Shown in pieces: positions 28,080 through 34,193 of a stretch of DNA of 64,000 bases. The position numbers and the translations under genes are program-made. A model generated the notes under the pieces. The model did not search any database. It saw only the letters and a program-made list of their open reading frames with translations, and was not told where the DNA came from. The DNA is from Agromyces subbeticus DSM 16689 (lineage in GTDB: Bacteria; Actinomycetota; Actinomycetes; Actinomycetales; Microbacteriaceae), in NCBI RefSeq assembly GCF_000421565.1, contig NZ_ATXG01000001.1:682001-746000 (forward strand), read 5' to 3'. Within the stretch, counting starts at the first letter, position 1; every line of letters begins with the position of its first letter.

Positions 28080-28448
28080 GGGTGTTGTGAGAGCTTTCTA
28101 GGGCCCGGCCAAGCGCCGGCATAGCGTGTTGGAGGCTGTAGCGGTTGAGGTAGGTTCACCGGGCGGTTTCGCGGGCGGATGTTGCGAGAATGGGTAACGA
28201 GTGGATTCATGGGCGGTGACCCATTTCCCCGGGCCGCTCACTACGTCTTGCGCTGGGGGCCGGCTTGCGAACTGCCGACAGCTGCGGTGCCGTTGCCTTC
28301 CGTCACCCAGTTTCATCGCGCTAGCGAGCGCCTCATCTTTGCACGCACTCCTCGGGCGGTACTCAGGCGTGGCGGCAGCACCTCGTCGCGTCGCTGTATC
28401 TGTCGGAGCCGCAGCGGCCCTGTCAGTGGTCGCACGGACAATGACGAT
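28080..28448. other. Intergenic stretch without a recognised gene
   Basis: About 370 bases. Open frames exist on both strands but none looks like a protein family. I see no tRNA, repeat or clear promoter here; GGGCCCGGCC near 28101 and GGGCCGGG near 25595 are similar GC strings on either side of the 2.5 kb segment, too short to weigh. Confidence 0.4.
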
Positions 28449-28727
28449 GTGGCAGACCTCTACACCAAGAATGGCCGCCCGCTTCGGCGTTCGGGTGACA
28501 AGCTCTTTGCGCGCTCCGGAACGTACGTCGGCCGCATCAAGGGTGACTACGTTTTCGACCCCTCGGGCCGCTACGCCGGCACTATCGCCGGAGACCGCGT
28601 GGCGTATCGATCGACTCACACTGCGCGGACTACCGGTCCGTCTGTCTCTGCGAATCGCGCTGGCAGCGGTGCCGCCAATCGTGGCGCCTCGGGTATGTGG
28701 GGCGACGAGCCGTCGTTTCCTGACTGA
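28449..28727 (+). CDS. Small beta-repeat protein next to the GHKL-nuclease gene
   Basis: A 92-residue protein if GTG 28449 is used. The first 55 residues hold repeated short motifs: LYTKNGRPLRR, LFARSGTYVGRI and VFDPSGRYAGTI, each a strand-Asn/Ser-Gly-Arg turn-strand. This resembles the small 4-fold beta-flower type domain, a tentative link. The remainder is a Ser/Ala/Gly/Arg-rich tail ending in EPSFPD. Its stop is 15 bases before the start of the ATPase-nuclease gene, so the two are probably one unit. Confidence 0.5.
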   Translation: MADLYTKNGRPLRRSGDKLFARSGTYVGRIKGDYVFDPSGRYAGTIAGDRVAYRSTHTARTTGPSVSANRAGSGAANRGASGMWGDEPSFPD

Positions 28728-28742
28728 GCCGGAGGGCTGGAA

Positions 28743-30764
28743 TTGAACACTGGCCCTACAGTAAGTCTTGTGAGGGACCTTCCGCTTTCCGCCGGTGGCG
28801 ACCTGGTCACCCGGCTGGCGCGCGAGCGTGACCCCGTGCGTGCCGTGGTCGAGCTCGTCTGGAATGCCATTGATGCTGAAGCCGACACCGTCCGTGTCCA
28901 GCTCGCTCGCTCGGACATGGATGCCATCGAGAGTGTGACTGTCGAGGACGATGGCCATGGCATCACCTCCGATGAGGTGCAGGCGACCTTCGGACGCATC
29001 GGTGGATCGTGGAAGGCGCTCGCGACGCGCTCGAAGAACGACAAGCGAGGACTGCACGGGAAGCTCGGCGAAGGTCGTCTGCGTGCCTTCGCTCTGGGGT
29101 CGCGGGTGACGTGGGAAAGCGAGGGCGTCAATACGGCGGGCGAGCGCGAGCGCGTCGTCATTGAAGGAGCCAAGGAGCGGGCAGAGCCGTTCGGCTGGGA
29201 CGCGGTCCCATCGAGCGCCACCGAGACTGGCACTGTCGTGACTGCGCTCAACGAGCAGGACCGGAACCTGAACTCGCTGATCAGCGACACTACGCTGAAC
29301 ACGCTCACCTCCCACTTCGCACCGGTGCTGCTTAACGACGAGTCGCTAACGGTCATCTTCGACGGGGCCAAGCTGGATCCCGCCGACGAGATCCTCGACG
29401 ACACGACGGTCGATGTTGAGCTTGACAGCGACCCGAGCGCCGTCGTCTTGGTCCGCATCATCGAGTGGCGAACGGGTAAGCACCGGGCGGTCTACTTCGG
29501 CGAGGATGCCGAGCGCTTCGTTGTGGAAGCCTCCGGCTCCGAGGTGGAGAGTCAGGCAGCGTTCTCGGCCTACGTCACGTGGGCTGGCTTCGATGTTGAG
29601 TCTCTCGCCGATCTCGGTCTCGGCGATATGGCCCCCGATCCGGCCGGAGCCGTCTGGCGCGCTACTCGCACTGCCGTCAAGGAGCACTTCGCGTCGCGCC
29701 GGCGCGCGCGTCGTCGGGATCAGATCGACGAGTGGAAGTCCAAGGGCATCTACCCGTACAAAGAGGCGCCCGCTACTGAGGCGGACAAGGCAGAGCGCGC
29801 AGTCTTCGACATCGTCTCAAGCGCACTCGTGCCGCAGATACCGAAGCGCAAGGACGGCGCGCAGCTGACGCTCAACTTGCTGCGGGACGCACTCAAGACT
29901 GATCCTGAGAACCTGGCGCTCCTGGTGAGCGAGTTCGTCGCGCTTAGCGAGCAGGACCGCCAGGCGCTAACGAAGCTGCTCAGCGAGACAACACTGGCCG
30001 GCATCATCCGTAGCGCCAATCTCGTCACGAGCCGAAGCAAGTTCCTCGCTGGCCTTGAGCACCTCCTCTTCGACCCCGACGACTCCAAGAAGGTCGGCGA
30101 GCGGGACCATCTCCACAAGATCCTCGAGCACGAACTTTGGATCTTTGGCGAGGAGTACCACTTCATGAACAGCGAGCGAGGGCTCACCCAGATGCTGCGG
30201 ACGCACCTCAAGCTCGAGGGGCTGCCGACCGGCAATGTCGAGCCGGTTAAACGATGGGACGGGAAGAGCGGCCGTGTCGACCTCCACGTCGCCGCCAAGT
30301 CCCAGGAGCACGACCGCGTGCGGCACCTGGTCGTCGAGCTCAAGGCGCCGGGCATCACAGCTGGGCGCGGCGAGCGCGACCAGATCGAGGACTACGTCAA
30401 CGTGGTCGTCAAGACGTCAGCGTTCGCCAGCGAGCGGGCCATCTGGGACTTCATCCTCGTCGTGACGGACTACGACGACGTGATCGAGAACTCCTTTAAG
30501 AGCGAGGGCCGCGAGCTTGGCCTCGTCCTCGAGCCAGACAAGAAGCCGGGCCGTCCGACGGTGCGCGCGTATGTTCGTCGCTGGCGGGACATCATTGACG
30601 AGAACAAGCGGCGTCTGGACTTCGTGTCGAGTTCGCTCGAGTTTGATCCGTCCCTCGCTGAGGGTCTCGCTTTCATCCGCAATGAGTACGCGGAGATGCT
30701 GCCGGACGACGTCGGGACTACCGAGGCGTCGAGCGGTGACGAGCAGCGAGCGGCCCTGCTCTGA
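28743..30764 (+). CDS. GHKL ATPase fused to a PD-(D/E)XK-like nuclease (candidate defence protein)
   Basis: A 673-residue protein. The N-terminal part is a GHKL (Hsp90/MutL/histidine-kinase) ATP-binding domain: N-box Glu37-x-x-x-Asn41 (ELVWNAIDAEA), G1 box EDDGHG (68-73) and G2 GKLGEG (106-111). The C-terminal part (about 455-640) looks like a Shedu/DUF4263-type PD-(D/E)XK nuclease: EHELWIFGEEYHF, then Asp513 (GRVDLHV) and Glu532-Leu-Lys534 (VVELKAPG). TTG 28743 is supported by GGAGGG seven bases upstream. The combination suggests an ATP-gated nuclease as in anti-phage systems. Composition differs from the core genes; function is inferred, not shown. Confidence 0.75.
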   Translation: MNTGPTVSLVRDLPLSAGGDLVTRLARERDPVRAVVELVWNAIDAEADTVRVQLARSDMDAIESVTVEDDGHGITSDEVQATFGRIGGSWKALATRSKNDKRGLHGKLGEGRLRAFALGSRVTWESEGVNTAGERERVVIEGAKERAEPFGWDAVPSSATETGTVVTALNEQDRNLNSLISDTTLNTLTSHFAPVLLNDESLTVIFDGAKLDPADEILDDTTVDVELDSDPSAVVLVRIIEWRTGKHRAVYFGEDAERFVVEASGSEVESQAAFSAYVTWAGFDVESLADLGLGDMAPDPAGAVWRATRTAVKEHFASRRRARRRDQIDEWKSKGIYPYKEAPATEADKAERAVFDIVSSALVPQIPKRKDGAQLTLNLLRDALKTDPENLALLVSEFVALSEQDRQALTKLLSETTLAGIIRSANLVTSRSKFLAGLEHLLFDPDDSKKVGERDHLHKILEHELWIFGEEYHFMNSERGLTQMLRTHLKLEGLPTGNVEPVKRWDGKSGRVDLHVAAKSQEHDRVRHLVVELKAPGITAGRGERDQIEDYVNVVVKTSAFASERAIWDFILVVTDYDDVIENSFKSEGRELGLVLEPDKKPGRPTVRAYVRRWRDIIDENKRRLDFVSSSLEFDPSLAEGLAFIRNEYAEMLPDDVGTTEASSGDEQRAALL

Positions 30765-30834
30765 GGTGAGTTCACGGATGATCTGCATGATGTTGTCGCG
30801 GTAGCGCGGCTGCACTCGGTGGACCCGCCGATAG

Positions 30835-31095: not shown

Positions 31096-32802
31096 CTAGA
31101 ACCCAAACAATGTGACGATCGCGTTTTCGATGGCTCCGAACACCTGCGCGATCAGGACGCCGAACCCGGTCCAGAAAGCACCCCAACCGACCGTCATCAC
31201 CACAGCCACCAGCGCGACGAGCAAGGACAGAACGCTGATGCCGAATCCCCAACGCTGCGTTCGCATGCCCTCCACGGATGCCGTCAATGAGGCCACCACG
31301 CCCAAGATTTGTCGAGTATCTGCGTCCGCTTGAATCAAGAGGTCGGCCTGTTCTCTCTGGACGTTCGCGAGGTAGTCAAGTTGATTTTCCGGGGCTTTCG
31401 GCGCCTCCCCCGGCTGCCGGTATTTCGGATCCAATTCGGTCTCGAACTCCGGGACATTCCATTTGTACGTGTAAGCATCCGAAGTGAGCGCCTTGATGCC
31501 CGCTGCGATCGCGAGGGTATCGAGACTTCCCCTAAGGAATGACTCTCGCAGGCTCTTGATGCTCCTAATTGATCGCTTTCCGTGAAGCGCGTACGCCGCG
31601 TCACGCGACTTGGCAGACTGCCGGGCCTTGAGAGAGAGTAGGGAACTGATCGCCAACCGTGACATGTAGCGACCCACGTCTTCGCTCACCCGGGCCGTGA
31701 TCGCGCGTATCGTCCGCGGGCGGCCGTTGAAGTATGGCTCGTCGTCGCTAAGAATGTCCGAGAGTCGTCCCGAAAGGTTGAACAGATCGGGCTCATCGAT
31801 CGGCGAACGTCGATCCGGCTGGTACTCGCTAAATCGCAATCCCGGCAACTCCGGGGCGACAGTCTGATAAAACTGTTGTGCGATTCCCAAGGCAGGCAAG
31901 TAATTGCCTATGTCGCGCATGTTGCTTTCGAAAGGCGCGGCAATAGTGGTGACGAGTAGATCCATTACAGGGAGATGGCCTTGAGCCTCCAATGCGAATA
32001 CGCCGGGAACTCGACGCGAAAGCCACCGACGAACACCGGCTCGCATGCGGGCGCGCTCCTGTTCGATCAGCTCCCCAGACATCTGAATTCGGCTGCGGAT
32101 GCTATGACCACCGCCGCGTAGAGGCTTGATCTCAGGCTCAGGAACAACGTGAAGCAATCGGTCGAGCGCCAAGGATTCCGGCTCGCTCAGCTCGAATGCG
32201 GCGACGATCGCCGTCAGCGAGTTCTGGAGTTCGATCATGGTGATCTCAATCGAACGGTATTCCTTGGGTAGTCGGGTCGGCGTGTATCCCATGAGGTGTG
32301 CGGCTGGCTCGTCCGCAGACAGAAGCCGGGCAAGAGTCGTTGAGTTGACCGTCCCTGTTACCCGTGCTCGCCGCACCCGTTCCTGAACGTCGCCATGAGC
32401 GGATGGCCACGTCGCACGCCATCCGGCCTTTTGGATATTGCGAGCCATTGAGGCCGCGTAGCTCGGGGGGAACATCTCGACTGCCCAGATCAGCGGCAGG
32501 TGAACCTTCTCGTCCGCCGGAACGACGATGTTGTATAGCGGATGCGTCAGCGGCCGAGATCGTTCGTGCTGAAGGCTCTCCGACCTCAACAGCCAGTTGT
32601 GGAATCTGCTGAGGCAACGCCGAATCGGCTTCGGTGTGAACCTGTAGCCGCTCCAGCCCATGAACCGACGTAACTGGGAAGACGCAGCATCGGACCAATG
32701 ACGCGGGCGGCTCGTCTCTCGTTCCTCGGTGGGCACATCAGGAACCCCGTCGGATGAGTTCGGCGGCCCAGCGGCCCTCTGGACCCGTCGAGAGTGCGTC
32801 AT
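31096..32802 (-). CDS. Unknown 568-aa protein with C-terminal membrane hairpin
   Basis: I do not recognise this family. The first about 470 residues are soluble, Arg-rich and mostly helical, without a signal peptide; a conserved-looking block is PLYNIVVPADEKVHLPLIWAVE. A Gln/Glu-rich helix (NQLDYLANVQREQADLLIQAD) leads into two hydrophobic segments at the end (GFGISVLSLLVALVAVVMTVG and FWTGFGVLIAQVFGAIENAIV). A large soluble domain with a terminal membrane hairpin, next to nuclease genes in a low-GC accessory region, is compatible with a membrane-acting defence effector, but this is speculation. ATG 32802 gives the longest frame. Confidence 0.6.
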   Translation of the reverse strand: MTHSRRVQRAAGPPNSSDGVPDVPTEERETSRPRHWSDAASSQLRRFMGWSGYRFTPKPIRRCLSRFHNWLLRSESLQHERSRPLTHPLYNIVVPADEKVHLPLIWAVEMFPPSYAASMARNIQKAGWRATWPSAHGDVQERVRRARVTGTVNSTTLARLLSADEPAAHLMGYTPTRLPKEYRSIEITMIELQNSLTAIVAAFELSEPESLALDRLLHVVPEPEIKPLRGGGHSIRSRIQMSGELIEQERARMRAGVRRWLSRRVPGVFALEAQGHLPVMDLLVTTIAAPFESNMRDIGNYLPALGIAQQFYQTVAPELPGLRFSEYQPDRRSPIDEPDLFNLSGRLSDILSDDEPYFNGRPRTIRAITARVSEDVGRYMSRLAISSLLSLKARQSAKSRDAAYALHGKRSIRSIKSLRESFLRGSLDTLAIAAGIKALTSDAYTYKWNVPEFETELDPKYRQPGEAPKAPENQLDYLANVQREQADLLIQADADTRQILGVVASLTASVEGMRTQRWGFGISVLSLLVALVAVVMTVGWGAFWTGFGVLIAQVFGAIENAIVTLFGF

Positions 32803-33092: not shown

Positions 33093-34193
33093 CTAGCCAT
33101 CTCCAACCCGGACGGTCGCCTGATCATCGGTGCCGTCCGTCGCGTCGGCGCGAAGGCTGGGGTCGAACGTCCAGACCGCCAGCGTGACCCCGTTTCGGGG
33201 GTCGCCGCCCTGAAGTTCAGTCCTCACGCGTGAGCTGATGTCGCTCAAGGCGTATGCCCTCGGGAAGCTCTCCCAGATGAGCGGGTCATACCTTGGGTGC
33301 GAGGACCACAACCCCCAGAAGAGATCCCCCTCGATCATCTGAACAGAACCGTCGTTGAACCGATAGAGCGGGAGGAGTTCGTCGTTGACAGCAGCCACGA
33401 CGAGATTGACTGAACGCGTTAGCTCGGTGATCAGTACGCCGGCGACGGCACCGTCGACGCCGAACTGGGAGATTGCCTCCGTGTATCTCTGCTCGCCATC
33501 GCTGCCGCCGAACCAAGTCTCCTTGTGCCGCCGCCGGATCGAATGTTGATCACGCTCGAGAACGAACGAGTCCGTCAAATGCCTGATGAGCACATCAAGC
33601 ACCGCTCGATGCGTTTCAAACGCAGCCGCAAGCTTCGGGTAGCGCGGAGGCCAATGCACTCCAGCGAGCCAGCTAGCCGTTTCCGTGAGTGACCGCCATT
33701 GAGCGCTGCTGACATACGGGTAGACGAAGTTGAGGCAACGGGTGAGCTCCTCCCATCCCGCAAGGTTAAGGGTGGCTTCCCAACGGTCGATCCGCGCCGC
33801 AAGCGCCACCTCCAGGCGGTTCCGGTCCTTATCGACATTGTCCATTGCGACATCGACTCGCGCCTCGTGCGCTGCCTTCATCTTCAGCACCTCAGCCACC
33901 GGCCACGCGCGACCGTTGTCCTTGTCGATAACTGTGTGATGGGTGGGGCAAAGAAGGACCAAGTTCTCGTAGTCGTTGAGTGTCTCAGTTGGGTATCGGG
34001 GTTCGTGGCGGGGCCCCGTTGGCTTCGATGACCGGATGTGTGCTTCCTCTCCGATCACTCCTCCGGTGCCACTGAATGCTTGGTCCGGTTTTTCGAGATC
34101 GCTGATGAGGCGCTGCGCGCACCCGGGAAATGCGCACCGGTTTCCGGCGTTCCCCCACAACGTCTTCCGCACCTCAACGCGCAGGTTGACCAA
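33093..34193 (-). CDS. HNH endonuclease-domain protein
   Basis: A 366-residue protein with an N-terminal HNH domain: Cys20-Cys25 (RCAFPGC), His52 (EEAHIRS), Asn77 (YENLVLLC), Cys82 and His85-His86 (CPTHH). This is the zinc-supported HNH form found in many mobile and defence proteins. The C-terminal about 240 residues are helical with no family I recognise. TTG 34193 is chosen because AAGGGGG lies six bases upstream. It is transcribed towards the 2-TM gene, 290 bases away. Confidence 0.75.
   Translation of the reverse strand: MVNLRVEVRKTLWGNAGNRCAFPGCAQRLISDLEKPDQAFSGTGGVIGEEAHIRSSKPTGPRHEPRYPTETLNDYENLVLLCPTHHTVIDKDNGRAWPVAEVLKMKAAHEARVDVAMDNVDKDRNRLEVALAARIDRWEATLNLAGWEELTRCLNFVYPYVSSAQWRSLTETASWLAGVHWPPRYPKLAAAFETHRAVLDVLIRHLTDSFVLERDQHSIRRRHKETWFGGSDGEQRYTEAISQFGVDGAVAGVLITELTRSVNLVVAAVNDELLPLYRFNDGSVQMIEGDLFWGLWSSHPRYDPLIWESFPRAYALSDISSRVRTELQGGDPRNGVTLAVWTFDPSLRADATDGTDDQATVRVGDG

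Follow-up and report, generated by a model that had tools for sequence, protein, structure and literature searches.

The 64,000-nucleotide stretch of Agromyces subbeticus DNA that was analyzed (the window) contains, on the forward strand at positions 28743 to 30764, a gene for a GHKL ATPase-PD-(D/E)XK nuclease, a single frame of 673 amino acids for which full-length homologues were found. The gene begins with TTG, a start that is credible because the aligned start residue is encoded by ATG in relatives (for example, MNTGPTVSL in L021) and GGAGGG lies directly 5' of it. Its dN/dS, 0.06 to 0.11 across six loci, indicates purifying selection.

Residues 33 to 131 of the product matched Pfam HATPase_c_3 (E 1.2e-15). 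This match and sequence invariance define the GHKL ATP-binding boxes (28851 to 29078, forward strand), which are the N box (E37-N41), the G1 box (D69-G73, as D69-x-G71-x-G73), and the G2 box (H105-R112, with H105-G106-x-x-G109-x-G111). In the full-length family alignment, 46 rows in which the window was counted and near-identical rows were retained, N41, D69, G71, G73, H105, G106, G109, and G111 were kept in every row and E37 was kept in 45, the remaining row being gapped. A smaller alignment comprised 21 relatives with identity down to ca. 28%, and because identity in the family falls that low, the invariance of the motifs is far beyond chance. The PDB sequences that best matched the ATPase part were MutL chains. 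A full-length structure model built from ten sequences, in which residues ca. 201 to 334 were strand-rich and followed by a long helix, was too poor (pLDDT 54) to be used for claims about the fold.

A second gene on the same strand (28449 to 28727) starts with GTG, encodes a 92-amino-acid beta-flower-like protein, and ends 15 nucleotides before the nuclease gene. The protein matched the Pfam beta-flower models PF21784 and PF21785 weakly, with 17.3 bits (cut-off 25) and 16.5 bits (cut-off 38), both below the cut-offs. A profile of the protein found the gene annotated as a "4-fold beta flower protein" in L184 (E 6.9e-10). The open reading frame is considered real because its dN/dS was 0.03 to 0.24 across 15 pairs from six loci, a sign of purifying selection. 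To our knowledge, the beta-flower fold received its name in 2023, with no function assigned to it. None of the matches listed in a literature search, which had most subscription journals outside its scope, tied beta-flower proteins to defense.

Relationship of the nuclease domain to Shedu proteins

The predicted C-terminal nuclease domain comprises residues ca. 425 to 640 (30015 to 30662, forward strand), as delimited by hhalign comparison with SduA_C proteins, an AlphaFold model, and VIA. Eleven of its residues (E453, H458, E470, D513, E532, K534, P536, Q547, Y551, W568, and W614) were invariant in all 46 full-length rows. Thus the C-terminus, which has the restriction endonuclease (RE) fold, carries the E-D-ExK pattern, in the form of E453/E470, D513, and E532-x-K534. 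E470 (30150 to 30152) is an acidic residue before the core. D513 (30279 to 30281), the putative metal-binding aspartate of the nuclease motif, aligns with the invariant D263 region of SduA_C proteins; the ExK motif (30336 to 30344) aligns with their E-I-K; and the glutamine of the Q547-x-x-x-Y551 motif (30381 to 30395) aligns with their invariant Q310 region. The initial annotation had assigned the three GHKL boxes and an Asp513/Glu532-x-Lys534 pattern to one 673-amino-acid chain, and all of these lie where it put them, kept in 45 or 46 of the 46 rows.

The C-terminus could not be named by Pfam, PADLOC, or NCBIfam. The Pfam SduA_C model (DUF4263, PF14082) matched none of the 21 aligned family members, window included (E up to 1), and the family search of the window's own genome gave no SduA_C match. 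PADLOC SduA matches were weak and were confined to 3/21 members and 1/21 members. HSDR_N_2 was the sole Pfam hint for the window protein (E 0.14) and matched 17 of the 21 members (best E 8.2e-5). A PDB sequence search with the nuclease profile, made from an alignment (A4) that leaves out L105, a contig-edge nuclease with additional sequence after it, was also rejected as it returned only a chance helical repeat.

Profile-profile comparison by hhalign was more informative. Against SduA_C proteins gathered from other genomes, the nuclease family gave a probability of 95.8% over 169 columns, and 98.1%, 94.0%, and 96.1% when the same sets were aligned differently. Among the controls, HSDR_N_2 reached 70.4% over 75 columns, PDDEXK_1 1.6%, and Mrr_cat 0.5%; NucS gave 1.0%, a weak control since that set consists of close relatives of low diversity. 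The SduA_C alignment extends from the E453 helix through D513, E532-x-K534, and Q547 to the C-terminal W614 helix, and the likeness therefore exceeds the common catalytic core.

An AlphaFold model of residues 396 to 673 (33 sequences, pLDDT 85) matched restriction-fold nucleases. The first three ranks by VIA were taken by Shedu structures, namely, E. coli SduA 8ps4 (Z 10.4) and 8ps5 (Z 9.8) and Bacillus cereus SduA 8ti9 (Z 9.4), followed by N.BspD6I (Z 8.8) and EndoMS (Z 8.6), so that the lead of SduA was small, less than 2 Z units. The nuclease core resembles those of the SduA structures from B. cereus (8ti8/8ti9) and E. coli (8ps4/8ps5), at a structural-alignment identity of 9 to 14%. The top Foldseek match was EndoMS/NucS (E 8.5e-4), and SduA was not among the best 50 Foldseek matches listed. 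By profile-profile and VIA comparison, the predicted PD-(D/E)XK C-terminus is nearest to the Shedu/DUF4263 core, and we regard it as a putative Shedu-type nuclease that is remote from the DUF4263 model. The initial annotation had proposed a DUF4263 (Shedu) nuclease and had made its reading depend on a C-terminus within the PD-(D/E)XK clan. Profile-profile and VIA comparison place the C-terminus in that clan. The Shedu proposal stands as a nearest relationship (hhalign, 94 to 98%; VIA ranks 1 to 3) but not as a match to the Pfam model (0/21).

Gene content of the exchange site

In blastn comparisons with L021 to L024 and L027, the DNA common to these relatives and the window was a block at 28421 to 30726 (forward strand; left edge between 28421 and 28449, right edge between 30706 and 30726) that holds the beta-flower-like and nuclease genes, plus a 51-bp scrap in three of the relatives. 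The relatives also share flanks with each other. Upstream is a divergent gene (DIV), and downstream, where present, are a convergent UzuA gene (PADLOC E 8.8e-93) and then a gene referred to as C2. The 51-bp scrap (30772 to 30822, reverse strand) is 84% identical to L021, L022, and L027 and is a remnant of the 3' end of C2, encoding PRYRDNIMQIIREL, which may be compared with PRYRDNIVEIIREQ at the end of C2. Because this scrap is the end of C2, the window has probably lost UzuA and most of C2.

Beta-flower genes elsewhere were sought in two scans. In the first, 28 of 299 genomes matched at an E value of ≤1e-3; the 7 below 1e-7 were used and the 21 at ca. 1e-4, mostly inside long frames, were left out. 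In the second, 5 of 317 matched and 2 were used. In four genomes (L198 to L201), the beta-flower gene is at the head of RmrT and RmrA; two of these genomes also have HamA and two have UzuA (PADLOC E values, scored on the L190 copies, of 2.2e-48 for RmrT and 2.4e-122 for RmrA). We take Rmr to be Rosmerta and Uzu to be Uzume. In L202 the beta-flower gene is followed by a serine recombinase, and an LmuB-like gene is close by; in L188 no same-strand cargo follows it within the stretch examined. The swappable cargo across L021 to L024, L027, L188, and L198 to L202 comprises the GHKL-nuclease gene or RmrT/RmrA with or without HamA. These gene orders indicate a Microbacteriaceae defense-gene exchange site in which DIV and the beta-flower gene are constant and are followed by swappable cargo and then by UzuA and C2. 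The site, a swappable defense slot with a beta-flower-like gene at its head, provides a defined context for seeking a role for that fold.

The same 92-codon gene with the same 15-nucleotide spacing precedes the nuclease gene in 5 of the 10 relatives from genome contigs (L021 to L024 and L027), or 6 of 11 loci with the window added. What is new here is this two-gene cassette, which in relatives occupies one slot of an exchange site that otherwise holds the PADLOC Rmr genes.

Several variant loci were also observed. In Microbacterium sp. MYb62 (L026, 8210 to 10165), the nuclease gene has an internal stop near residue 340, DIV is present, and the beta-flower gene is absent. The Curtobacterium plasmid pS16 (L039, 7998 to 8735) encodes a stand-alone 245-amino-acid nuclease half that keeps D and ExK and is 94.6% identical to L023. 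The idea that this short nuclease is a plasmid-borne inhibitor was dropped because of that identity and because it lies beside a UzuA remnant; it is more probably a truncated copy of the same locus. The L109 copy, without a GHKL domain, begins where a transposase-like frame, so named from reading the translation, overlaps it. On a Mycobacterium intracellulare plasmid (L183, 5992 to 6270), a beta-flower relative with 60% identity lies between kasB and an integrase cluster, and no nuclease of the window family was found around it in that stretch.

Predicted function and alternative explanations

The combination of a GHKL ATPase and a nuclease in one chain is a known architecture, described in 2008 and tested in 2025, and the window protein is therefore not a candidate for a new kind of system. 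paraMORC3 (Iyer, Abhiman and Aravind 2008, PMC2292703) has been described as comprising GHKL and S5 domains and a C-terminal RE-fold nuclease with E-D-ExK, as often standalone without conserved neighbors, and as prevalent among proteobacteria and bacteroidetes. Compared with that description, the window protein is similar in its intact ATP-binding motifs and its RE-fold nuclease bearing E-D-ExK and differs in being actinobacterial. A beta-flower neighbor is found at 6 of the 11 close loci of the window family. At those 11 loci, the window and its ten relatives from genome contigs, four probes found no methyltransferase near the nuclease gene, with the limit that distant types would escape these probes.

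The second precedent is VcSduA of the Vibrio cholerae WASA lineage. According to the 2025 report (PMC12137116), VcSduA is a single-gene system with GHKL and DUF4263 domains that protects against phages and requires both domains to do so, the substitutions E27A and K557A each abolish defense, and the protein is assigned to Shedu type I-D. As described there, VcSduA resembles the window protein in having an N-terminal GHKL domain and a C-terminal PD-(D/E)XK domain in one chain, with both centers kept in the window protein. Unlike VcSduA, the window protein has no Pfam DUF4263 match and has a beta-flower leader gene. The motif spacing, taken from the published residue numbers rather than from aligned sequences, is 530 residues in VcSduA (E27-K557) and 497 in the window protein (E37-K534). 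By its predicted domains, the window protein combines GHKL with a Shedu-type nuclease in one chain, as in Shedu type I-D or VcSduA-like defense, and it belongs to the architecture of paraMORC3 and VcSduA. A recently validated defense architecture is thereby extended to actinobacteria.

We consider it likely that the product of 28743 to 30764 is a solitary, ATP-gated anti-phage DNA-cutting protein of the paraMORC3/VcSduA kind. The chain joins an ATPase domain to a catalytically complete Shedu-related nuclease, full-length relatives have all retained the catalytic residues (E37 being gapped in one), the family is patchy and is carried by plasmids and prophage contigs, and close relatives sit beside the known defense genes UzuA, RmrT/RmrA, and HamA at the same site.

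GHKL domains dimerize on ATP and clamp DNA. From this property of the family, and by analogy with VcSduA, ATP binding would cause the paired N-terminal domains of a dimer to close on DNA as a clamp, and closure of the clamp would bring the C-terminal nuclease domains into action. The activated nuclease would then cut invading phage DNA, with the ATP state gating the cutting. Because no methyltransferase was found beside the close relatives, foreign DNA might be told by a cue other than a missing methyl mark, such as free ends, topology, or a bound protein. The beta-flower-like protein encoded upstream might modulate the nuclease, or its gene may be only a standing gene of the exchange site.

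Full-length copies were found in 7 of 199 related genomes, the window's own genome counted, and in 2 of 296 genomes across the phylum. Same-genus copies, 32 to 42% identical, sit on separate branches of the gene tree, which departs from the species, as expected of genes moving between lineages. On plasmids there were 49 matching records, of which 35 covered at least 80% of the query. The family is present in two Pasteurella phages, and in one of them, Pmp3, the gene lies among tail and anti-repressor genes. A scan of viral contigs with the single window sequence found no relative; with the alignment as the query, 28 loci were found. Such carriage would fit a protein whose main targets are plasmids or competing mobile elements and whose beneficiary is the carrier element and not the cell. 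However, chromosomes or large contigs house both the window copy and its nearest relatives, with other defense genes next to several of them, and anti-plasmid and anti-phage roles are compatible, so that a service mainly to the carrier element seems unlikely.

Relatives with methyltransferases raise the possibility that the protein provides the restriction activity of an ordinary restriction-modification system, with the host-protecting methyltransferase encoded elsewhere in the genome. P0002, a 668-amino-acid protein from an actinobacterial genome, combines a GHKL N-terminus with a C-terminus of the Pfam SduA_C family; its SduA_C score in hmmscan was 23.5 bits, below the 27-bit cut-off, and a genome search placed it, with its neighbors in frame, at the cut-off. 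Together with eight plasmid relatives P0002 forms a clade that matched the window family end to end in profile-profile comparison (99.9% over 544 columns) and in which Pfam SduA_C matched two of nine members. An annotated DNA cytosine methyltransferase adjoins the gene in seven of the eight plasmid loci; at L205, the remaining one, a restriction endonuclease is present. In the window family itself, the more divergent members are near Dcm in L038, an N-6 methylase in L041, and a type ISP enzyme in L042. In addition, the best NCBIfam match of the window protein was the BbrUII/HgiDII restriction enzyme family (NF050001), which it resembles in the GHKL-type ATPase part only, residues 35 to 130, with 47.1 bits against a cut-off of 550. 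In contrast to the P0002 clade, the window and its close relatives gave no methyltransferase with the four probes, blind as these are to distant types, and the restriction-modification explanation is judged to be quite unlikely for the window protein. With methyltransferases annotated at 7/8 loci of one clade and found by the probes at 0/11 of the other, the sister clade has the appearance of restriction-modification and the window clade that of a solitary system. This contrast, between a clade without an accompanying methyltransferase and a sister clade nearly always with one, is useful for the question of how a GHKL-gated nuclease spares host DNA.

The methyltransferase-paired GHKL-SduA_C-like proteins of the P0002 clade (L203, L204, and L206 to L210) are encoded on plasmids of Rhizobium, Deinococcus, Pantoea, Acinetobacter, and a haloarchaeon. 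They are candidates for a restriction-modification form of the Shedu nuclease.

The initial annotation had suggested the protein encoded at 28449 as a partner of the nuclease. The association itself was borne out at 6 of 11 loci, but the gene also heads unrelated cargo, which weakens the case for an exclusive partner, and nuclease relatives lack it. It is possible, if doubtful, that the beta-flower-like protein contributes to the working of the system as a small regulator or trigger dedicated to the ATPase-nuclease. If that were so, the six-locus cassette would be a new two-component form of GHKL-Shedu defense and the beta-flower fold would gain its first testable role. A toxin-antitoxin-like pair in which the beta-flower protein restrains the nuclease would be consistent with the two-gene block, its fixed spacing in six loci, and the purifying selection, and also with the beta-flower gene being intact in 6/6 loci with the nuclease and in 1/4 with RmrT/RmrA (two copies with stops and one truncated). 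However, the nuclease gene is intact in L025, 84% identical and without a beta-flower gene, the relatives in L028 to L030 also lack that gene, and beta-flower genes lead other cargo, all of which makes such a pair very unlikely. Least probable of all, to the point of being hardly credible, is a housekeeping repair protein in which a MutL-like ATPase is joined to a NucS/EndoMS-like nuclease, as the MutL and EndoMS matches of the two halves might suggest, because the family is patchy (7/199 full-length) versus a NucS_C match in 40/40 genomes, the hhalign probability to the low-diversity NucS set was 1.0%, and the gene tree departs from the species.

Two further genes lie close to the nuclease gene in the window. 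The gene between the nuclease and HNH genes (31096 to 32802, reverse strand) encodes a 568-amino-acid protein with a hydrophobic C-terminus, for which there was no family match over cut-off in Pfam, PADLOC, or NCBIfam. The HNH gene (33093 to 34193, reverse strand) encodes 366 amino acids that include an HNH domain (Pfam HNH_2, E 1.2e-4) and a C-terminus without a family name; the protein gave PADLOC HNH effector matches (best E 1.4e-29), and the gene is a candidate second defense gene.
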